From Sipunculus nudus (Eukaryota > Annelida > Sipuncula > Golfingiida > Sipunculidae), in the NCBI GenBank assembly GCA_026874595.1, contig CM049306.1:51682519-51746518 (forward strand): a DNA stretch of 64,000 nucleotides. The letters are read 5' to 3'. The notes under the pieces were generated by a model that worked only from the letters and a program-made list of their open reading frames with translations, had not been told where the DNA came from and did not search any database. Below, piece by piece: positions 16,901 to 54,113 of this stretch. The position numbers and the translations under genes were made by a program. Position 1 is the stretch's first letter; each line of letters begins with the position of its first letter.

Positions 16901-19900
16901 AATGCCGTAACCATAAATGCTAAGGCTAGGTGTTCATACGCGCGTAAGCTAACGCGAATGCGACGGCGAACGAGTCGCGAGCCATTAGCTAGAGCCCTAG
17001 GCGTGTTAGCCACACAAATGCGGCTGGCATGGACAAAAAGACGGCTGTTTCGTATGCCGTGTCCCGTCTTGGCTTGTAAAATGTCGGCTGGTTTAAAATG
17101 ACCTGAACTTTGTAACATTTGACCATGTTACAAAGTCATCATTTCATTTAAACCGGTTATCTTTATTAAGAGTGAAATATTGCATCCATTTTACAATTTT
17201 TTTAACCAGTTTGAGATTAAGTAGAGTTTAGTCTGGTTGTTTCATAAACCAAACTTAAACAATCGTATTGTTTCCAACCAGCGACAGGAAACAAAAAATA
17301 ACAAAACCTAAATAAAATGTTTCGCGCATTTTTAACTGTAAACGATATTTCTTTTTGATATTTTTTTCTTAAGCCAAACTGAGCTGCCCAAAATCGACTT
17401 AATGAAATATTGGCGGCGCCTCCTGATAAACTCGGCTCGATCTTAATTCGGCTGGCGGCTGCGCAAAATGGCGGCGGCTCTGGTCTCCAACGTTGGCGGT
17501 ATTATATTAATTACTATGGAACTCGCGATTTCAAGTCCTTTTCTGCACAATTACATTACAGATATTTTTGTTTTATTTGGTGAATTGTGAATATTTTTAT
17601 CAAAGTGTATATTCTAGATTTAAGTCATGTTCGAATTTAAATTTATCTCAAAATAAAAAGTATGTCGATCGAAGTTATTCTCGATCTACATCCAGCGTTT
17701 CCATTGTCACACATTGCTAGTCATTTTATCAGCTTGTGATAGAGATATATATCTATAAGTCTTCCCTTTGTGACGTAGTTTCAAGGAATTCCAACGCGAA
17801 TGCCGCGGCAGGGCCCCAAATCGCTTCTCCGAGTGATTAAGAAAAGCGCGTTTACGCTTGAAAACGTTATAAGGAATCGCTGTATACATTGATATGTACA
17901 TAGGATCTATTTATGTCGCGCTGGCTCTCCCATTCGCGCTTTTGGTAACGTAGTTTTAAGTTTTAACTTGGCATGCTGACATTCCCCAACAGGTCTCTTT
18001 TGCAAATCTAGGTTACTGTGCGCCGAATTTCCAGTTTCTAGAAAAAAAACACAAATCTGCATACCATGGAATTTAACCGCTTATTAGTAACAGTTCATTC
18101 AAAAACTGACCTGTATTCAGGCATTGAGGAAATTTCCTTGGAAACCAAATATTAATTCATTGTGGCTTTTTTTTTTTTTTTTTTTTGCAATGCATATATG
18201 AGGATGACATTCAACAGCTCATTGTCAGCTAAAGTCTCAATTATTAACTTAGTAACTAAGATTTATTATGATTAGTCACAGGAAGCTCATAATCGACATG
18301 CAGTTTGGTCTCAGACGAACATTCTAACAGTCTCAGGAGCAGGTCACCGTAACAATATTCAGGTTTGAAAATCATTCAAAAAGCCAGGGTTTTTTTAAGG
18401 ATTGGTGGTCGGATCGTCATGGCCGAACAGGGGCAGTTTCCATATAAGCAACGACACACTTTCATTTGGTGAATTTATATAACTTGCAACTGTGAATATT
18501 CTAAAATAAAAAGGCATATTCGAAATCAGCCTAAATTTAGGCAGCTCGAATTAGTGAAACGACTTTGTATTAAAGTGAGCGTCATGGTGTTATCAGTCAT
18601 ATGAATATTTTATAATTACAAGTGGTGTTTTCTGAGCTGTTATGTACCTTGCTGTTCATGTAAGGTTTTATAATAAGATTTTGCGCAGGAATATCGGGGT
18701 TGATCTTTGCCTTTATGATTATGTGAATTTAATCATTTATGGTATTGGGCAGTCTGGGATGTTTTATGCTTTATTGGCCGTATGATGTTTTATCATCAGA
18801 TATGGTGTGGGGCTGTCTGGGCTGTTCTGCGCCTTGATGATAATATGCTGCAAGATCAACCACGAACAGGAGGTGGACGTGTTCCATGCTGTTAAACAGA
18901 TCAGGAAAAGCCGGCCACAGTTCATAAGTACAATGGTATACAGTTCCTGATATCTTGTATAACCAAAGAGTGGAGAATCCACAGGGGGAGGGGTCTGTAA
19001 CCCCTTCTTTTTGAGCGGCAACAACCTTTTCTCCAGGGTTGTAAACCAAACATTCCTGGCTTGACCTCCTCCCCCCCCCCCCCTCCTTCTAGTTCAAGAG
19101 ACCTTTCTTTAGATGTTTTCATTTGAATTCCTGGGTTGGACCTTCCCTTTCCAAAATCCTGAATCAGCCCTATAGGTTCACTTGCTGGAAAAGTCATAAC
19201 ATCGGCTACTTAGTGTTGTTTAAATTATTTTATCTACAGTCCTTGTAGGAACCTGTATGTGATTACAATAAGGTGAAACTAAAACAGTTGGTAATGCAAC
19301 GCAAAGATCTCCTTCCGTGTTATCCTTTCCCATTTCCCATAATGCCCACAAAATGGCTCAGAACAATATTATAATTATAAAAAGGCTCATTTTATGGATG
19401 AAAATCCCATTTATGTTCCCTTTTTGAACTGATTTTCTTTCAGCTTAATGACACATAATTTAATAAGAGACTATTGTTAAAACCATTCCTTTCACTATGT
19501 TCAGCTGATTACCTATCAAATTTATTGTAAATTTTGAGTAATATCGACCTTCTGCATGTTACTAAACTACCCACCTTTAATGGCAATTTAAACAAGGCCT
19601 ACAGGCCTAATGCGAACCTCTGCAAAGTATGAATGGAGGTTAATTTTTTAAATTTAATATTGATCCTCTTAAGTCCTGCATATCTACCTTAGTCATTATA
19701 ATTTCAGCGAAATGGACATTTCGGACCTGCAAGTTTCAAACTAGGACATTTTAAAATTAGAATATTGGTAGTCGACAAGCGACTATGTGTATCCCCAGAA
19801 ATCAGAGTGGGACGGGTGAAGTGAGGCATGGATTAAGTGGCAAGGGTAATAGAGTGAGGTGTGTTGCATATTAGCATTGATGTCTGCAGCGTAAACGGGA

Positions 19901-21896
19901 ATGTAGGTGGAGCCACCTGTCATAAAATCGAGAAAGCTGTCCAGGATGTATAAACCTGCAACATTTCAGGTGGATAAGTCAAACCACTGCTGAGGTATGA
20001 GTGATTTTATTCCAAGGCAGATGAACAGATGAACGCTGTGTATTAGTGGTTGCAGGTGGCGCCACAAGTTTTGCCTATGATGAAGAGCTATGTGAGATCT
20101 ATACACATGCAAAATTTTGGCCCAATCGGTCAAACAGTTCCGAAGATATGAGCTTGGATGTCTGCAGAGTAAACGTGAATGTAGGTGGCGCCACCTGTCA
20201 TAAAATCGAGAAAGCTGTCCAGGATGTATAAACCTGCAAAATTTCAGGTGGATAAGTCAAACCACTTCTGAGATATGAGTGATTTTATCCCAAGGCAGAT
20301 GAACAGATTGTCGCTGTGCAAAAATGGTTGCAGGTGGCGCCACCAGTTTTGCCTATGATGAAGAGCTATGTGGGACCTATACTCATGCAAAACTTTGGCC
20401 CAATCGGTCAAACTGTTCCCGAGATATCAGCTTGGATGTCTGAAGCCACGTGAATGTAGGTGGCGCCTCCTGTTATAAAATCGAGAAAGCTGTCTAGGAT
20501 GTATAAACCTGCAAAATTTCAGGTGGAAAAATCAAACCACTGCTGAGATATGAGTGGTTTTATCCCAAGGCAGGTGAACAGATGGACGCTGTGCAAAATT
20601 GGTTGCAGGTGGCGCCACCATTCTTAGTGTATATTATAAAGCTATCAAAGGGCTATATTTGTGCAAAATTTTTAGCCTGATCAGTCAAACGGTTCCCGAG
20701 ATATATGGGTTTATGTGGGGAAACAGACGCACAAATGGACGCTGGGCAGCAAGGAAATGTTAGAGGTCGACCAAAAATGAGGGCACAGCAGTTCACATGT
20801 GACCTGATGATGCTTGTCGAGTGTTTATTGGCATCTGATTGGCTGCTTGTCACATTGTACGCACTTTTATTTCAGTGGACAACGAACCGCCATCTGGTGT
20901 CTAAATATATCATAAACGGTCAAAACTGGCAGCGTGAAAATCAGTTGCTTCTTCAGAAGCACAAGAAATCCGCTGCCTCGGGAGCGTAACCATAGAATAA
21001 GTTTAAACCAATCAGCTTAACAGTTTCATCATAAATAAGTGTATAAGCTAGAAGAGTTTAAAATTACATTTTTTGCTTGTAAAAAACACATCAATGTAGG
21101 TGGCACCACCAATACCTCAATTTCAGATATGACATATGTGAAAAACATTGGTATAAAATTTGGTGATTATAGCTCTAGCTGTTTCTGAGATTTTAATTTT
21201 AGTGTGCTTTTTTGGACAGATGACTAAGTTCAACCTCCTGTAACTCGGCCAAAAATCTCCGAACTGGAACCATTCGAACAAACTTGAGAAAGATTGTTCA
21301 AGGGATCATTTCTGTGAAATATTGGACAACTTGGCTGGACAGTTTCAGAAAAGAAGATTTTTAAAGCTTTTTTAGCGTTTTCCTTATAAAATCTAAGAAA
21401 ATGCAGTTAGAAAAAAAATTAACAAAATCCGATAGAGTTTTTCAGATGACTGATTATTTGCAAAATATTTGGTGATGCTAGCTTCTGCCGTTTTTGAGAT
21501 AGCTATGGTTAATGTACAGACAACGCATGACGCATGACGGACGACACCACACCATCGCATAAGCTCACAGGTTCGCTAAAAAGGCTTGAGAGGCAGCAAT
21601 ACCACCCAACTTGGAGTTCCATTTATTTTTACATCAATGTTGGCATTTATCATACATGTATTGCTTATGGATTAAAAATGATTTCCCCATTAATGAGTTT
21701 ACTTCCTTACTGAATATTTGGAATATATAGGTAATCAAATTATATATCAAATTTAAGTATTACATTCTTGCATTTACTATACTCTCGAGTGTTAACAGAG
21801 GCAAATTTATCTTTCCAGGAACAATACAAGTGGCTCCACCAAGCAGCAGGACAGTACATCAGCTCAATGCAAACTTATGCCAATTTCCGTTGCTGA
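188..21896 (+). CDS. Receptor-type tyrosine phosphatase with EGF-like ectodomain (gene span, 5' incomplete)
   Basis: Twenty exons listed separately below join in consistent phase into 860 residues plus stop; the start and signal peptide lie upstream of the window. Order: three MEGF/laminin-EGF-like cysteine-rich exons (residues about 1-225), one transmembrane helix (about 236-258), a basic juxtamembrane stretch, catalytic domain D1 (about 300-600) and domain D2 (about 600-860). D1 has KNRFRNIIPYD, DYINASYIN, WPDHGVP (Asp at visible residue 481) and HCSAGVGRTG (Cys513, Arg519), so it should dephosphorylate phosphotyrosine. D2 has lost WPD and reads HCQYGVGLSG, so it is probably a pseudophosphatase acting in regulation or docking, as known for many receptor PTPs. 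The ectodomain suggests a ligand- or matrix-sensing cell-surface receptor; the ligand is unknown. I do not assign an orthologue name because EGF-bearing receptor PTPs are expanded in molluscs. Confidence 0.92.
726..950 (+). CDS. RPTP exon: EGF-like repeat unit 2
   Basis: A phase 1-1 exon of 75 codons, acceptor AG at 724-725, donor gtaccg at 951. It encodes CDDGRYGIRCKYNCSATCSGPCD...CPECLHGYYGNQCDKDCGEGCLGDGSC...CRCKVGYNKGKCEG. The cysteine pattern matches unit 1 position by position, so this is an extracellular disulphide-rich module. It ends at the same relative place, a Cys-Glu-Gly interrupted by the intron. Confidence 0.9.
951..2443. other. RPTP intron holding a rearranged MITE
   Basis: Apart from the inverted-repeat element at 1141-2339 (own entry) nothing coding is seen. 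The short minus-strand frames at 1614-1868 and 1997-2236 resemble each other only because they lie in the two right-half copies of the element. Confidence 0.7.
1141..2339. mobile_element. MITE with TATCTCACTGGG termini, left and right halves each duplicated
   Basis: The left end TATCTCACTGGGCTGCGACA at 1141 is the inverse of the right end, ...GCAGCCCAGTGAGATA ending at 2339, giving a terminal inverted repeat of about 22 bp. CAG flanks both ends (1138-1140 and 2340-2342), a possible 3-bp target duplication. The inside is odd: a second left end starts near 1376, and the right half occurs twice (1604-1971 and about 1986-2339), giving the order left-left-right-right. The interior is rich in GCGA/TCGC words and has no transposase frame, so it is non-autonomous. 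The superfamily is uncertain. Confidence 0.75.
2444..2665 (+). CDS. RPTP exon: EGF-like repeat unit 3
   Basis: A phase 1-1 exon of 74 codons, acceptor AG at 2442-2443, donor gtaacc at 2666. It encodes CEEGLYGPRCKQTCAVTCVNGC...CVSCLPGHYGDRCESTCWPGC...CECREEYQGDRCEG. It is more diverged than units 1 and 2 but keeps the Cys framework. It is the last ectodomain exon seen before the membrane span. Confidence 0.88.
2999..3104 (+). CDS. RPTP exon: transmembrane segment
   Basis: Acceptor tttcaaacag at 2989-2998, donor gttagg at 3105; enters in phase 1 and leaves in phase 2. It encodes AYVRGKPIVKH followed by a hydrophobic helix of about 23 residues (AAIVVPLLICIFCVIG, then ILLIVTW) and a basic FR at the cytosolic side. 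This is the only membrane span in the visible protein, giving type I topology with the EGF repeats outside and the PTP domains inside. Confidence 0.88.
3105..4309. other. RPTP introns with C-rich run, otherwise no signal
   Basis: Apart from the small exon at 3390-3436, the only structure is a C/CT-rich tract at about 3766-3807. Nothing else is recognised. Confidence 0.6.
3390..3436 (+). CDS. RPTP exon: basic juxtamembrane segment
   Basis: A 47-nt exon after acceptor atatcacag, encoding RKGKPQFWKRSFRERN, a basic stretch just inside the membrane. Two donors three bases apart are possible (gtagta at 3437 or gtatgt at 3440). Both keep the frame and would differ by one residue, so the end is uncertain by 3 nt. 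Confidence 0.72.
4310..4458 (+). CDS. RPTP exon: juxtamembrane and start of D1
   Basis: Acceptor aatgtatag, donor gtaagg at 4459; enters phase 1, leaves phase 0. It encodes LELHTLYGLDQQQRTDTSLT then VKVSDYPLYMKQLLRKEDGF and DDDFK, which fits the helical lead-in region of the first PTP domain. Confidence 0.85.
4881..4968 (+). CDS. RPTP exon: D1 phosphotyrosine-recognition loop
   Basis: Acceptor tttattccag at 4871-4880, donor gtgagt at 4969. It encodes RISIDPVSPWNVGTQPKNLN followed by KNRFRNIIP, the KNRYxNIxP motif that forms the phosphotyrosine-recognition loop of classical PTPs. It ends phase 1; the split codon completes to Tyr in the next exon. Confidence 0.92.
5164..5231 (+). CDS. RPTP exon: D1 YINASYI segment
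   Basis: Acceptor tttccttttag, donor gtgagt at 5232. It encodes YDKNRVMLNNGENGDYINAS then YIN, the conserved DYINASY core strand of class I cysteine PTPs. Confidence 0.92.
5362..5398 (+). CDS. RPTP exon: short D1 exon
   Basis: A 37-nt exon after gcattttcag, donor gtgtgt at 5399. It encodes GYERPRAFIAAQG, matching the G(Y)xxxxxFIAxQGP segment of PTP domains; the Gly codon is split and followed by GP in the next exon. Confidence 0.88.
5399..6088. other. RPTP intron, nothing recognised
   Basis: About 690 bp. A GC-richer patch near 5600-5760 has no open frame of interest and no repeat I can pair inside the window. Confidence 0.5.
6089..6186 (+). CDS. RPTP exon: D1 GP...FWxMxWE segment
   Basis: Acceptor attttaacag, donor gtgagg at 6187. 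It encodes GPSPLTLTDFTMMLWEQRVP then LVVMVTNLEEAGK, equal to the conserved 'QGP...T..DFW.M.WE......VM.T...E.G..K' block of D1 (Phe-Thr replaces Phe-Trp). Confidence 0.92.
6317..6439 (+). CDS. RPTP exon: D1 KCxxYWP-like segment
   Basis: Acceptor gtatctaacag, donor gtaata at 6440; 41 codons, phase 0-0. It encodes VKCAQYWADPGETKRIGSII then VTSTSVVQKPHYIIRHLVFTQ, matching the K-C-x-x-Y-W-P block and the following beta strands. Confidence 0.92.
6440..7709. other. RPTP intron with one copy of an old local duplication
   Basis: The segment at about 7270-7545 resembles 9322-9600 in a later intron of the same gene (see findings). No exon is recognised elsewhere in the intron. Confidence 0.5.
7710..7858 (+). 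CDS. RPTP exon: D1 WPD loop and first half of the P-loop
   Basis: Acceptor acaacgcag at 7701-7709, donor gtcatt at 7859. It encodes GGDEHQVTQLHFVSWPDHGV, then PTNPASFLSFYRHAVQLYNP and RVGPTLVHC. The WPDHGVP motif gives the general-acid Asp (visible residue 481) and the exon ends at the catalytic Cys513. Exon GC content is clearly higher than in the flanking introns. Confidence 0.95.
7859..9922. other. RPTP intron, AT-rich
   Basis: It holds a short G run near 8510 and the second copy of the local duplication (9322-9600). No coding signal is seen. Confidence 0.5.
9923..10058 (+). CDS. RPTP exon: D1 catalytic signature and Q-loop
   Basis: Acceptor tatcacttgtag, donor gttggt at 10059. With the two bases from the previous exon it completes HC-SAGVGRTG, including the catalytic Arg519, then TFLAMDYLLNQARREGAVSV and SGCIQNLRQQRVSMVQNA. 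QQRVSMVQ supplies the Q-loop. The D1 active site is therefore complete. Confidence 0.95.
10577..10702 (+). CDS. RPTP exon: C-terminal part of D1
   Basis: 42 codons, phase 0-0, donor gtaaaa at 10703. It encodes GQYIFIHECLLEALLFESTV then YDVEAYDPVSAVSSSDIRRQ and FQ, matching the terminal QYxFIHxALLEA helix. The acceptor (tgaatgaaag) has a poor pyrimidine tract, so the exact 5' edge is less certain, but the join gives VQN-A-GQY with the residue count normal for the family. Confidence 0.88.
10856..10903 (+). repeat. (ATT)n microsatellite
   Basis: A near-perfect ATT/TTA trinucleotide run inside an RPTP intron, with one T-rich interruption. Confidence 0.9.
11085..11141 (+). CDS. Possible cassette exon in the D1-D2 linker
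   Basis: 57 nt between a strong acceptor (T-run then tcag) and donor AAG/gtgata, open for exactly 19 codons in the phase-0 frame shared by its neighbours: RRRTDYKQSRQTDDVIEMK. The neighbouring exons join well without it, so if used it is an optional charged insert between D1 and D2. This is inferred from splice signals and phase only. Confidence 0.35.
11444..11617 (+). CDS. RPTP exon: start of D2
   Basis: 58 codons, phase 0-0, acceptor atttatactag, donor gtatgt at 11618. It encodes VLDILMTPETQGTSHEGIEH, then ENKSKNRKYAPVPNIKWRPV and LVTPVTGRNAYINAVYVE. KNRKYAPVPN and AYINAVYVE correspond to the KNR and YINA motifs of a second PTP domain. Confidence 0.9.
12083..12211 (+). CDS. RPTP exon: D2 core
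   Basis: 43 codons, phase 0-0, acceptor tttccctag, donor gtaaat at 12212. It encodes GYTKNDCVYVTQSPTADTIV then DLWRLVYDYKCPIIVALNRT and GTA, the D2 counterpart of GYxxxxxFIxTQGPxxxTxxDFWRMVxE. Confidence 0.92.
12212..15843. other. Large RPTP intron with MITE, poly-C/T tracts and unidentified sequence
   Basis: It contains the hAT-like MITE at 12390-12833, long C/T runs (about 13003-13024, 13050-13065), an A-run near 13208, and C runs at about 14469-14489 and 14813-14828. A short frame before the MITE is described in findings. No exon is supported. Confidence 0.6.
12390..12833. mobile_element. hAT-like palindromic MITE, 444 bp, with 8-bp target duplication
   Basis: The terminal inverted repeats TACGCTCCTCA and TGAGGAGCGTA are perfect over 11 bp. 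The whole element is a diverged palindrome: the block at 12497-12555 (CATTGTGCATCCAGCTCC) is inverted at 12640-12710, and GGTTCGACC at about 12451 is inverted as GGTCGAACC near 12743. The target duplication CAAAGCAG occurs at 12382-12389 and 12834-12841. An 8-bp duplication is the hallmark of hAT elements. There is no transposase. A related right-end fragment lies at about 42088-42132. Confidence 0.85.
15844..15960 (+). CDS. RPTP exon: D2 central segment
   Basis: 39 codons, phase 0-0, donor gtaagt at 15961. It encodes DFPDYLPQREDTFGCLKIKT then VKVTDEEMYTKTKLQLNVK, replacing the KCxxYWP block of an active domain by PDYLP. The acceptor is T-rich, ending attgaag. Confidence 0.87.
16141..16304 (+). 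repeat. Four tandem copies of a 3' splice-site block
   Basis: The unit TTTCTGTCCTTTCCATTGCA-G followed by AGGCA occurs four times with acceptor AGs at 16161-16162, 16209-16210, 16257-16258 and 16303-16304 (spacings 48, 48, 46). Each copy carries a polypyrimidine tract, an AG and the first exon bases. Only the last copy is in frame with the D2 exon. Confidence 0.88.
16305..16450 (+). CDS. RPTP exon: D2 degenerate WPD region and start of pseudo-P-loop
   Basis: Acceptor cattgtag at 16297-16304, donor gtaagt at 16451; enters phase 0 and leaves phase 2. It encodes RQSLVLHQVSLRKTLQETLP, then DVTTMLTLVEEVQKLKRESP and EGAMVVHC. No WPD tripeptide is present where an active domain would have one. It ends at the Cys of the pseudo-signature (visible residue 789). 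Confidence 0.9.
16451..18799. other. RPTP intron with CpG-rich patches
   Basis: Locally CpG-rich blocks occur at about 16930-17060 and 17410-17500, including GGCGGCG runs. An 11-bp perfect inverted repeat (CTTTGTAACAT / ATGTTACAAAG, 6-nt loop) lies at 17108-17135 and a 22-nt T run near 18166. No exon is found. Confidence 0.5.
18800..18935 (+). CDS. RPTP exon: D2 pseudo-active site
   Basis: Acceptor ttatcatcag, donor gtatac at 18936. With the preceding CA it reads HC-QYGVGLSGLFCALMIICC, then KINHEQEVDVFHAVKQIRKS and RPQFISTM. The signature HCxxGxGRSG has Leu for the invariant Arg (visible residue 795), so phosphate binding should be lost. The EVDVFHAVKQIRKSRPQ helix is the normal D2 consensus, so the domain is otherwise well preserved. 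Confidence 0.93.
19880..20710 (+). repeat. 278-bp tandem array, about three dimeric units with palindromic boxes
   Basis: The phrase GATGTCTG(C/A)AG recurs at 19879, 20157 and 20435, a period of 278 bp. Each unit holds two diverged half-units of about 140 bp, each headed by a GGTGG(C/A)GCCACC-type palindrome and sharing AGCT...GCAAAA.TTT...GTCAAAC...GAGATAT. Inverted relatives lie at about 50440-51260. Confidence 0.85.
20766..20776 (+). other. Unoccupied counterpart of the composite-element insertion site
   Basis: GTCGACCAAAA lies in a repeat-family copy whose flanks match, in reverse complement, both sides of the 2.9-kb element at 47491-50390. That element's target duplication reads GTCAACACAAA on this strand. 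Confidence 0.55.
21819..21896 (+). CDS. RPTP last coding exon
   Basis: Acceptor tatctttccag, phase 0, 25 codons plus TGA at 21894-21896. It encodes EQYKWLHQAAGQYISSMQTY then ANFRC. EQYKW is the D2 equivalent of the terminal EQYxFxYxxxxxY helix. The protein stops soon after D2, as is usual for the family. Confidence 0.92.
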   Translation, partial: EQYKWLHQAAGQYISSMQTYANFRC

Positions 21897-47479: not shown

Positions 47480-47490
47480 TTTGTGTTGAC
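47480..47490 (+). repeat. Left 11-bp target duplication of the composite element
   Basis: TTTGTGTTGAC, repeated exactly at 50391-50401. Confidence 0.75.
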
Positions 47491-48837
47491 TACAGGCCGG
47501 TGAGACGCAGATTTTTGGGACGTAAGCCGCCAGGACGTACCCACTGAAGCGTATCCCGATAGGACGTATTGTTAAAATAAGAGTACATGTATCACTTGTC
47601 TGACTGTCTATACTTTACACGTACTAAAACAAAAAGACTAAGTAATAATAGTTAATTATACTTTCGTTAGTAAACCCTCTCTTGGGTCACTTTGGGAAAT
47701 CATTAAGCTCTGTGATCGATGCAACATACGTCAAATCAGCACACGTTAATGCCTAGTATATCTGTGTTATCCATTATTACTATATTACCCTCATGCACTT
47801 ATATCGTTGTGTTCCTTAACTGAAGTTTGACAAAATATTTAATAATTTTATTGTTAATTAGAGCATTATTTTGGCTTAAAGTACGACCGTCCCTCAATAG
47901 TGATAAACCCCGGGTATGGTTAACCCATCAGCATTCTCCAATTTATTGGCCTAACCAGAGGTTTAAATGACTGATAATTACAGGTTTAAAGTGTAACATC
48001 TTACTTTATTTTCCATATTCCTGTTTTAATTTTCACTATTATAAGTATGTATATCATGTCGTGAGAACATATTAAGTCTGCTCAAACATGAACGAACTGC
48101 TCACCAGAGACCAGCGAAGCCGCAGTATAAACGCGGTCACGAGAAACCATTCACCCGACGCGGCCACTCCTTCAGTTTAATTAACGGACGAAAAATGTCG
48201 ATCAAAGGTTTCTGGATGATGAATCATTTATATTGATCTCTTACACGCACTTAATGTATTAAGGAAAGAATAAATATTTACATATTTTGATTATATTCGA
48301 CTTCTGACAGGAACACATTCCGAATAAAAGACATTATAAATAGACAACAATTTTATGAGAAAAATAACTTTATAGAATAAAAAATTAGGTTGGTTGTTAT
48401 TTTGTTAACATGAAAATACTACCTGTGCGTAGTATTCAGTTAGTATCATCCGCTCTGGCGCAAGTACGATCGGTGGCGGGTGACCTATTTTGGAACAAAT
48501 TAAGTGCGGCGGTTGGTGTAGACAATAAAACTATCCTGAAAACGATTTATCTCCAAATTGTATGTGTATATTTAATTTCTCGCGTGTGTCTGCATGTTGA
48601 AACCGCAGTGTTTAAAACTATCCTGCTGATTGAAGATTCCTCTTCAAATTGTGTGTTTTTTTTTTTTATTTCACCGGTCAGTCTATGTGTTGAAACCGCT
48701 GAATAGTGAATGACGAATAACAATTATACCTTTGAGTTCCTACTAACCGCTAATTGAGTCCATAAAGAACCGCTAATGAATACCCATCTTCCATCAAGCA
48801 ACCGTCAACTTAATGTAAAACCAGAAGACAAAAATAA

Positions 48838-49566
48838 ATGAAAGAAAGAAAGAAAGAGTTATGTAACGAAGGGAAGAATGAAGGAAAGACTGAAAGACAA
48901 AAGAAAGAAAGAAAGAAAGAAAATTGAATGAAAGACCGGAGGAAGAAAGAAAGAAGTAAAGAATATGTAACGAAGGAAGAATGAAGGATATACGGAAAGA
49001 CTGACAGAAAGAAAAACTGAAAGAAAGAAAGACTGAAAGAAAGAAAAAAAAAGAAGAACTGAAAGAAAGACTGGAAGAGGAAAGAAATACTGAAAGACTG
49101 AAAGACTGAAAGAAAGAAAGAAAGAAAGAAAGAAACATGTATCGAAGGGAAGGATGAAGGAAAGACTGAAAGAAAGAAAGGCTGAAAGAAAAAATGATTG
49201 AAAGAAAGACTGAAAGAAAGAAAGAAAGAAAGACTGAAAGAAAGATAGACTGAAAGAAAGAATGAAAGAAAGAAAACAAAAAGACTGAAAGAAAGAATGA
49301 AAGAAAGAATGAAAGAAAGAAAAAAAGAAAGAAAGAATCATGTAACGAATGGAAGGATGAAGGAAAGACTGAAAGAAAGAAAGACTGAAAGAAAGAAAGG
49401 CTGGAAGAAAGAAAGACTGAAAGAAAGAAAGAAAGACTGAAAGAAAGAAAGAAAGACTGAAAGAAAGAATGAAAGACTGAAAGAAAGAAAGAAAGACTGA
49501 AAGACTGAAAGAAAGAATCAGGTAACGAAGGGAAGAAAGAAGGATGGAAGGAGTGAAGAAGGAAGG
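48838..49566 (+). repeat. GAAA/GACTGAAA purine-rich minisatellite
   Basis: About 730 bp built of GAAA, GACT and GGAA words, with a higher-order punctuation (A/C)ATGTA(A/T)CGAAGG.A(G/A)GATGAAGG near 48859, 48965, 49137, 49339 and 49519. The + strand is almost free of C and T outside GACT and the punctuation. The Ser/Phe-rich minus frames at 48794-49341 are its translation, not genes. Confidence 0.92.
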
Positions 49567-49672
49567 GAATTATAATTAATGACTTATAATTAATGTTTGT
49601 GGCTTACTACTGATTGACTCCAGATGAACTCACAGACTCAGCTGAGGTGAAGATCATAGGTGTTACTCAGGA

Positions 49673-50224
49673 GGGTTCGTTTAGCGTAGTTTAAGTCATA
49701 AAAAATACACTTATAAAGAAGAGACGTATCTGGGCAGGATGTATACACGCAGGGTTCGTTTAGCGTAGTTTTAGCCATAAACAATACACTTATGAAATAG
49801 AGACGTAAACCGGCAGAAAGTATACACGCAGGGTTCGTTTAGCGTAGATTTAGCCATAAAAAATACACTTATGAAAGTAAGACGTAGACGGGCAGAAAGT
49901 ATACACGCAGGGTTCGTTTAGCGTAGTTTTAGCCATAAAAAATACACTTATGAAAGAAAGACGTAGACGGGCAGAAAGTATACACGCAGGGTACGTTTAG
50001 CGTAGTTTTAGTCCTAAAAAATACACTTATGAAAGAGAGACGTAGACGGGCAGAAAGTATACACGCAGGGTTCGTTTAGCGTAGTTTTAGTCATAAAAAA
50101 TACACTTATGAAAGAGAGACGTAGACGGGCAGAAAGTATACACGCAGGGTTTGTTTAGCGTAGTTTTAGTCATAAAAATACACTTTTGAAAGAGAGACGT
50201 AGACGAGCAGGAGGTAAACACGCC
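49673..50224 (+). repeat. 79-bp minisatellite, seven units
   Basis: GGGTTCGTTTAGCGTAGTTT starts at 49673, 49752, 49831, 49910, 49989, 50068 and 50147 (exactly 79 bp apart), with the next GGG at 50225. Units are highly similar, differing by a few substitutions, so the array is young or homogenised. Confidence 0.95.
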
Positions 50225-50390
50225 GGGTCCCGCAGCACGACACGCTAAATGGTGACGGGGCGATGTTTATGGAGTGCGTCCTACCGGCCACTCGTCATTG
50301 TTTATATAGTGCGTCCTGCCGCCCTGCGTTTTATCGCACGGTCCGTTGGGACGTACGTCTTATCGGGATGCATCTCACCGGGTGCACACC

Positions 50391-50401
50391 TTTGTGTTGA
50401 C
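50391..50401 (+). repeat. Right 11-bp target duplication of the composite element
   Basis: TTTGTGTTGAC, identical to 47480-47490. Confidence 0.75.
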
Positions 50402-50439: not shown

Positions 50440-51260
50440 TCTGTTTTGACACATTAACCCATATATCTTCAGACTCCTTTTACCAATAGGGCTGAAATTT
50501 TGCACGGGTATAGTGCTTAGACAGCTTTTTAACATACACAAAAATGGTGGCACCTTCTGCAACTATTTTTGTACAGCATCCATCTGTTCATCTGCCTTGG
50601 GGTAAAATCACTCATATCCCTGCTGTGGTTGGACTTATCCACCTGAAATTTTGCATGTGTATACATCCTGGATAGCTTTCTTAATTTAATGACAAGTGGC
50701 ACCACCTACATTCACATTCAGGCTGCAGACATCCATGCTAATATCTCAGGACTGGTTTGACGTATCCTCACATAGCTCTTTATCTTTCACAAAACTGTTG
50801 GCGCCACCTGTCTGTCTGCCGTGGGATAAAATCACTCATATCTTAGCAGTAATATGACTTATCTACCTAAAATTTAAAATATGGATTCATCTTGGATAGC
50901 TTTCTGCATTTTGTTCTAGGTAGCGCCACCAACATACATATTTCAGCTGCAGACACCATGCTAATATCTCAGGACTGGTTTTACGTATTGGCCTAAAAGT
51001 TTGCATGAGTATAGATCTTATATAGCTCTACAGCTAAAATACAAATTTTTTTGGCCCAACTTACAACCATTTTTGCATGGTGTACATTTGCTCATCCGCC
51101 ATAGAGTAAAATCACTCATATCTCAGCAGTGGTTTGACTTATCCACCTGAAATTTTGCATATGTATACATACATCTTTGATTGCTGTCTCTTTTCAAATA
51201 TCAGGTGGTGCCACCTACAAACATGTTTACATGGCAGACATCCATGCTAATATGCAAAAC
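50440..51260 (-). repeat. Inverted relatives of the 278-bp dimeric array
   Basis: Read on the minus strand it shows the same GGTGG.GCCACC boxes, GATATGAGTGATTTTA and TGCAAAATTTCAGGTGGATA words as 19880-20710, in about three diverged units. The + strand shows GTGGCACCACCTAC near 50696 and GCGCCACC near 50801 and 50924. Confidence 0.8.
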
Positions 51261-52791: not shown

Positions 52792-52860
52792 ATGAAAGGA
52801 GCAGATGAGAGGAATACACTGAGCAAATCCATGTGTGAGGCTGTGGTAACAAGAGGATGA
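52792..52860 (+). CDS. Short frame overlapping the PGAP4 start codon (uORF or end of an upstream exon)
   Basis: An ATG stands directly behind the acceptor tcaatttacag (AG at 52790-52791) and is followed by 22 sense codons, MKGADERNTLSKSMCEAVVT then RG. Its TGA (52858-52860) shares two bases with the PGAP4 ATG (52857-52859), an ATGA overlap. It may act as a uORF with reinitiation on PGAP4, or be the last piece of an upstream frame. Evidence is positional only. Confidence 0.4.
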   Translation: MKGADERNTLSKSMCEAVVTRG

Positions 52861-54113
52861 AGTCGACATATAGATCTTGTCACTGGAGGAATATTCTCAC
52901 CTATCTAAGGGGACCATTTATGAAACACATGCTGGTTTTATATATTCTCACATTTGCTATTTTACTGCCAGCACTTTGTTTCCGACTAAAACACTCAATG
53001 TATTACCTTGCACCCACGAATAAAGCAGAAAGTCAAGATCTCTTAAGGCAAGAAAATGATCAAAGGATCCAGAAAGCTAACTATTTCTTTGAAATGTCTG
53101 ATAAAATAAAGTTGAAAACAGTACTGAAGCAATTCAATGGAAATGGTTCAGATATAGATGTTGTTATTAGCATTATAACAGTTTCCCGCAACCATCAAAG
53201 ACTTGACCAGTATCAACCAAAGTACCTCACACAAGTTGTATGGAAGTTTTTGTCGTTACTGTTCGCTTCCCAAGGTCAAGGATACCCATACAGAATTCAG
53301 TTGTCAGTGTGTAATGTTGATGGTGATCCAGATTCATATATAGAAGCGAAGAACATGTCTGGATATGTCCCAGTGTTCAACAGATTCACGAAACGAACAC
53401 TGAATATCGGTGATGTCCTCGAGAAGGAGAAACAAGATTATGTGTATTGTCTGAACAGCAGTTTTCACCAATACAAACCAAAGTATGTCCTTCTCGTGGA
53501 AGACGATGCTTTGCCTAATGATGATTTCTTTGATATCCTGCAGTTTATGATTAAAAAGCATCTAGGACATAAAGAAACACATGGTTTGGAACAGTTTGAG
53601 AGACCGTTATTGTTTGTAAAAATGTATCACCCAGAAAGACTAATCGGCTTCTACAGTATAGAACCAGAGAGGCTGCCAGAGCTGTTTGGCCTCGGAGCTC
53701 TTGCTGGAACTGTTCTACTTGTTATCTATACAAGGATATTTGCAAGAGAATCTGCCAGTAGGAGCATTTATTTTATCTGGTTTTGTTTTTCAGTGTATAG
53801 TATGCTCGTGGCTTGTGCAATTGGGAGACAAAACTTGGTTGAACTCAGGAGACTGTCTAAACATTTATACAGCTACGTTCCTGCTCCATCTTGTTGCACA
53901 CCAGCAAACCTGTTCCCGGAACAAGGTGGAAAGATGGTGGTGGATTATCTCAGCAAAATCAGATGTTATCCAAGATTTGGTAAAGACACAGCCCTAGACC
54001 AAATGAGACGAGAGAAAAATGCAGCTGCGTTTATGATACAGCCAAATCTGTTTAAACATATAGGGATGTACTCTTCCCTGAGAGATGTAATTCTTGATCC
54101 ATCAATTGTGTGA
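52857..54113 (+). CDS. PGAP4: Post-GPI attachment to proteins factor 4 (TMEM246-like GPI-GalNAc transferase)
   Basis: An uninterrupted frame of 418 codons, close to the roughly 400 residues of vertebrate PGAP4. By family knowledge this Golgi enzyme adds GalNAc to the first mannose of GPI anchors on proteins; it is a GT-A-like transferase with an unusual two-helix membrane insert. Visible here: N-terminal membrane helix (about 25-42), a Rossmann-like start DIDVVISIITVSRN (about 99-112), the DxD-type motif VLLVEDDALPNDDF with EDD at 215-217, KMYHPERL (255-262), the membrane hairpin (about 274-292 and 303-323), then APSCCTPANLFPEQGG (343-358) and QPNLFKHIGMYSSLRD (395-410), all characteristic of the family. 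The ATG is the first in frame after an in-frame TGA at 52836-52838. The coding region is intronless, with a 5' splice acceptor just upstream at 52790. Confidence 0.93.
   Translation: MKSTYRSCHWRNILTYLRGPFMKHMLVLYILTFAILLPALCFRLKHSMYYLAPTNKAESQDLLRQENDQRIQKANYFFEMSDKIKLKTVLKQFNGNGSDIDVVISIITVSRNHQRLDQYQPKYLTQVVWKFLSLLFASQGQGYPYRIQLSVCNVDGDPDSYIEAKNMSGYVPVFNRFTKRTLNIGDVLEKEKQDYVYCLNSSFHQYKPKYVLLVEDDALPNDDFFDILQFMIKKHLGHKETHGLEQFERPLLFVKMYHPERLIGFYSIEPERLPELFGLGALAGTVLLVIYTRIFARESASRSIYFIWFCFSVYSMLVACAIGRQNLVELRRLSKHLYSYVPAPSCCTPANLFPEQGGKMVVDYLSKIRCYPRFGKDTALDQMRREKNAAAFMIQPNLFKHIGMYSSLRDVILDPSIV

Follow-up and report, generated by a model that had tools for sequence, protein, structure and literature searches.

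According to the accessible parts of the papers describing them, Mutator-like elements (MULEs) have target site duplications of 8 to 11 bp (PMC6446971), and the Tm1 family of root-knot nematodes is a Mutator/Foldback (Phantom) family with a Phantom-type transposase (PMC3169594). The Spectre MULE of arthropods shares an 8-bp duplication with the element described here, but differs from it by inverted repeats that are perfect over 74 bp (Table 1 of that paper gives 76 bp) and by a transposase of its own (PMC6446971). The Cg_HINE Helentrons of the Pacific oyster resemble our element in being dispersed and non-autonomous and in carrying satellite-like repeats at their centre together with a microsatellite, whereas their Helentron substructures, described in the available text, distinguish them from an element with 8-bp duplications (PMC7492417). 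We analyzed an element located in a 64,000-nucleotide stretch of Sipunculus nudus DNA (the window; positions 51,682,519-51,746,518 of contig C1) and searched the source genome, which comprises 1,426,538,692 bases in 153 contigs. The element is a non-autonomous DNA transposon that is dispersed over the genome, is flanked by 8-bp duplications and contains internal arrays whose length varies. It is probably a cut-and-paste element of the MULE type, and it clearly represents a type already known, not a new one. Its features are listed in Table 1.

Table 1. Features of the transposon, its target site duplications and the related empty site (window positions)
Feature	Position	Strand	Remarks
Related unoccupied target site	20605..20811	-	Joined-flank alignment; next to tandem repeat
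Left target site duplication TTTGTGTT	47480..47487	.	8 bp
Non-autonomous DNA transposon	47488..50390	+	2903 bp; boundaries common to copies elsewhere in the genome
Left outer tip GACTACAGG	47488..47496	+	Without inverted counterpart at the other end
Left sub-terminal array	47497..47569	+	About five ~15-bp repeats; RGACGYA cores at offsets 15, 30, 45, 74; degenerate AAGCGTA at 59
Left interior	47570..48830	+	Without tandem repeats; without ORF of at least 150 aa
Purine-rich GAAA/GACTGAAAG array	48840..49517	+	TRF; length differs between copies
79-bp minisatellite	49672..50228	+	TRF; about seven units, one RRGACGTA motif per unit
Right sub-terminal array	50275..50381	-	RRACGYA cores at inward offsets 15, 30, 59, 74, 109
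Right outer tip, inward GGTGTGCAC	50382..50390	-	Differs from left tip
Right target site duplication TTTGTGTT	50391..50398	.	8 bp

The initial annotation had placed the left boundary at 47491. However, this position was preceded by GAC (19 loci) or AAC (1 locus) in all 20 fetched loci, while the bases further out varied, and the start was therefore moved to 47488. The right boundary was borne out, as were the motifs CCGGTGAGAYGCA and ATCCCGATARGACGTA, which occur in inverted orientation at the two ends, and the enclosure of both internal arrays by the termini. The copies of TTTGTGTTGAC reported on both sides are indeed present as an 11-base match between 47480-47490 and 50391-50401, but the duplication comprises 8 bp and not 11, because the left GAC belongs to the element and the right GAC (50399-50401) is target sequence. 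The latter three bases occur at the related empty site as well, and GAC after the right duplication recurs in one other (L047) of 29 copies. A chance base match beside an insertion can thus inflate an apparent target duplication, in this case from 8 to 11 bp.

Duplications were read in these 29 copies, namely, the window copy, 18 fetched copies, and 10 from short stretches. They matched at 7 or 8 of 8 positions in 27 copies; L049 reached 7/8 once it had been shifted by eye by one base, and L014 matched at 5/8 positions only. Six long copies (on C16, C9, C11, C3, C4, and C15), read by eye from their ends, had duplications matching at 8/8 positions. Duplications of 8 bp with at least 7/8 matching positions therefore flank 34 of the 35 copies read, a count that does not include the 70-bp miniature L064 (6/8, in an A-rich run). 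A duplication of 11 bp had been considered atypical of the well-known superfamilies with terminal inverted repeats; the actual length of 8 bp falls within the Mutator-like range as given in the available text of PMC6446971 and is therefore not atypical. There was no clear target consensus beyond A/T richness in 27 sites. In hAT elements, the 8-bp duplication has the form nTnnnnAn; among the 27 sites, 15 have A and 9 have T at position 2.

The proposed presence of a related unfilled site in the window was confirmed by the joined flanks, which aligned as one stretch (score 139) with the reverse complement of the site given in Table 1. The 31 bases to the left of the duplication alone scored 28, whereas the highest score among 2000 shuffled targets (single-base shuffling) was 24. 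A tandem repeat family (278-bp period at 19868-20620; also at ~50463-51253) adjoins the insertion. By eye, the right flank of another element copy, L063, is similar to this family, and this copy may sit in another member of the family. Downstream of the element, we noted an open frame of 418 aa (52857-54113, + strand) that looks like a membrane-bound glycosyltransferase.

The two 9-bp tips agree at their first base only. Inside the tips, both ends continue with CCGGTGAGACGCA (the window copy has GAGATGCA at its right end), followed by the ~15-bp repeats with the core RGACGYA. The relaxed core RRACGYA was present at left offsets 15, 30, 45, and 74 in all 19 copies, and at the five right inward offsets in 14, 17, 17, 17, and 18 of 19 copies, respectively; the degenerate left repeat at offset 59 was read in the window copy. 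The strict core RGACGYA occurs 15 times in the element, whereas 222 overlapping window segments of equal length contain it 0.39 times on average and never more than 3 times. Repeats at mirrored offsets inside dissimilar tips fit a MULE trait, namely, inverted termini, which are often long and in some members lie sub-terminally. Single-strand folding of the right end gave a z value of -0.25, and neither Rfam at gathering thresholds nor a tRNA scan returned a match in the whole window.

Helentrons and HINEs insert by a rolling-circle mechanism and are not known to produce a target duplication of this size. The duplications at 34/35 copies read and the inverted sub-terminal arrays leave a negligible probability for a Helentron/HINE-type element, although such elements are known to carry satellite-like repeats in oyster and the available text on Cg_HINE also describes tandem repeats beside a short-motif array (PMC7492417).

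The left 110 bases of the element had at least 40 genome matches with 97-100% identity, and the right 160 bases at least 40 matches with 96-100% identity. A pattern scan allowing up to 3 mismatches retrieved 85 left ends (2 with the reversed-pattern control) and 82 right ends (control, 5). A search for other loci with both termini had been proposed in the initial annotation, and 68 end pairs on the same strand and within 15 kb were found. These pairs span 70 to 10,932 bp and are located on contigs C1 to C17; 45 of the 68 measure between 2.39 and 3.38 kb, and 17 left and 14 right ends were unpaired. Both ends lay within a 9.2-kb stretch in 18/20 fetched loci. Three left-end matches with 3 mismatches on C17 share one common tip sequence. 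In one of these that was fetched (L066) and in L067, the resemblance to the left end of the element stops after the tip, so that some of the 3-mismatch left-end places are probably due to chance. L025 is a truncated left end adjoining other genomic sequence.

Several loci have unusual arrangements. At L065 (C2:51791900-51792520), two copies abut, the right end ...GTGCACAC leading directly into the left end ...TACAGG of a second copy of 287 bp. L064 (C16:27937400-27937570), the smallest pair, is a 70-bp miniature with little beyond the two tips, and L079 (C8:53603160-53603660) is a diverged miniature of ~240 bp in which left-like and right-like ends adjoin.

In the left 1.3 kb, 17 copies differed by substitutions at 1.0-2.4% from the majority sequence, values that refer to 17 of 19 copies (L017 and L021 were left out because of deletions) and to a sample that favours young copies because it was picked by similarity. 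The 79-bp array contained between 3 and 20 units in 19 copies, and the length of the purine array also varied. Copies with 3 to 20 minisatellite units represent a natural series for studying the effect of internal arrays on transposition.

The 79-bp unit carries the RGACGYA core of the ends, in left-end orientation. Because the same motif occurs in both, the unit may be derived from sub-terminal DNA. As each unit repeats the core, the array could act as a multiplied store of transposase-binding motifs that titrates transposase, aids end pairing or allows one-ended events; if so, its size would tune mobility. However, the motif core is not unusually conserved: across the 107 full 79-bp units of 19 copies, 20 of 74 hexamers equal or exceed it in conservation. 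This counts against such a function, which we consider quite improbable.

The initial annotation suggested that a mobile element of this kind might seed 79-bp satellite DNA elsewhere, and arrays of 3-20 units do travel in dispersed copies. A search with a 79-bp dimer returned 69 candidate regions, of which the best 40, drawn by eye as distinct regions from the listed matches, were scored. All 40 lie inside element copies, 39 of them at most 2 kb from a listed right end and one located ~2 kb inward of the left end at C9:46028947, and no free 79-bp array was thus seen among the best 40 of 69 candidate regions. As a consequence, satellite seeding is unsupported and appears highly improbable.

The statement that the element lacks a transposase agrees with our data, as none was seen in the window copy or in the seven longest end pairs. 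All open reading frames of at least 150 aa overlapping the window element read the purine array in antisense orientation. A long copy with a transposase between the same termini had been suggested as a search target, but was not found: the seven pairs above 4 kb correspond to the same element altered inside, and no MULE transposase was seen in them, five having been compared with the L073 protein (see below) with no match and those on C16 and C3 having been judged by their open frames. The 10.9-kb pair on C16 (L057-L058, C16:35411850-35422940) was rejected as an autonomous copy, since an LTR element, which we take to be Gypsy-like from its open frames, is nested at element position ~240. Also rejected were the pairs of 7.8 kb on C9, 6.7 kb on C11, and 5.4 kb on C3 (element plus inserted DNA), L013 with 6.2 kb (expanded purine array and ~2.6 kb between its 79-bp units), the 4.6-kb pair on C4 (L062, C4:62222010-62226735), in which the middle is replaced by ~2.9 kb with antisense ORF scraps, and the 4.1-kb pair on C15 (changed middle). 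The scraps in L062, which look like SWIM-finger and YqaJ-type proteins, had no Pfam match up to an E value of 0.1.

MULE DNA was encountered at diverged left ends. At C14:14929691 (77% identity over 269 aligned positions), the shared CCCTCATGCAC is followed directly by MULE coding DNA in the same orientation, and at C2:5372930 (79% over 267), TTGATGCC leads directly into the C-terminal part of a MULE, also in the same orientation. The two junctions differ, as expected of independent internal deletions. One fragment at C14:14929691 matched the Pfam MULE family at 4.5e-5, which is below the curated Pfam cut-off, and a second reading frame there had no MULE match in Pfam. Neither remnant shows an N-terminal part, and no right end was listed for either MULE-bearing relative. 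The best relative of the C14 remnant elsewhere in the genome, L073, contains an open frame of 461 aa that matches the Pfam domains FLYWCH (2.1e-7) and MULE (2.6e-14). The genome thus encodes a FLYWCH plus MULE protein, but no termini matching those of the element were present in the 4.6 kb fetched at L073. When the L073 protein was compared by tblastn with four relatives, it matched those on C14 (E 2e-25) and C2 (E 6e-10); no MULE match was present in 2.0 kb at a third relative, C16:30619201 (73% over 871 aligned positions), or in 1.7 kb at C14:44615691. MULE DNA occurs at 2 of 8 fetched unpaired left ends (17 in total), with L016, L066, and L067 outside the protein comparison.

A search for the MULE family in the 1.43 Gb gave 252 candidate places, and the best 150 of these were scored, a lower bound; the resulting 131 listed matches exclude the C14 and C2 remnants. 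None of these 131 matches lies closer than 26 kb to any of the 85 left and 17 right ends included in the comparison, so that the assembly has no known partner with such ends. A 607-aa open frame was noted by eye in 43 among the 131 MULE matches listed, with nearly identical scores (e.g., C8:54901684), which suggests that this MULE family was recently active.

Duplications of 8 bp are also compatible with the hAT, P, Merlin, and Zisupton superfamilies. A non-autonomous element of one of these, lying beside MULE fragments by chance at two relatives, would agree with the failure to find an autonomous MULE with these ends, and the transposase searches covered MULEs only. Nevertheless, 2 of 8 fetched unpaired left ends run into MULE DNA in the same orientation, set against 252 MULE candidate places in 1.43 Gb, and the composite ends resemble a Phantom-type family; we therefore regard another superfamily as rather unlikely. 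The MULE assignment draws on the many left and right ends and their pairs, the 8-bp duplications, the phased RGACGYA repeats, the two relatives that run into MULE DNA and the Tm1-like architecture. Against it stand the location of the MULE remnants in diverged relatives rather than in core copies, and the fact that an intact transposase between matching ends was not found. Taken together, MULEs are well supported as the mobilising superfamily, short of proof.

Under the MULE assignment, a transposase, probably of a FLYWCH/Phantom-like lineage, would bind the phased RGACGYA repeats inside each end, cut at the dissimilar 9-bp tips and insert the element at target cuts staggered by 8 bp. The purine and 79-bp arrays would be passengers that move with the element, and may grow and shrink by slippage or unequal exchange.

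The literature searched contained no account of this transposon family, which does not by itself prove its absence in print. The Tetris foldback transposon of Drosophila virilis is likewise tied to tandem repeats and satellite DNA; according to the available text, it supplied an emerging satellite (PMC4079207), whereas no free satellite was seen here among the best 40 of 69 regions. As described in the accessible part of PMC6446971, Rehavkus and aphid Phantom MULEs also contain a minisatellite, located before the 3' inverted repeat in the former and after the transposase ORF in the latter; Phantom duplications measure 8-10 bp where given. Rehavkus differs by 9-bp duplications, as compared to 8 bp here, and by a PHD-finger transposase (PMC6446971); no transposase was seen in our copies. 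The element also resembles Tm1, for which the available text describes dissimilar outer tips (7 bp, 9 bp here) backed by short tandem repeats (13-15 bp, ~15 bp here); most Tm1 copies have duplications of 8-10 bp, the majority of members are MITE-like, and a GA-rich motif is located internal to the ends (PMC3169594). Differences from Tm1 are that its duplications are most often 9 bp, that its repeat motif is another one, and that the word minisatellite is absent from the paper (PMC3169594). The present element thus extends the composite-end plan known from nematode Tm1 to another genome, in which it is represented by many well-preserved copies.
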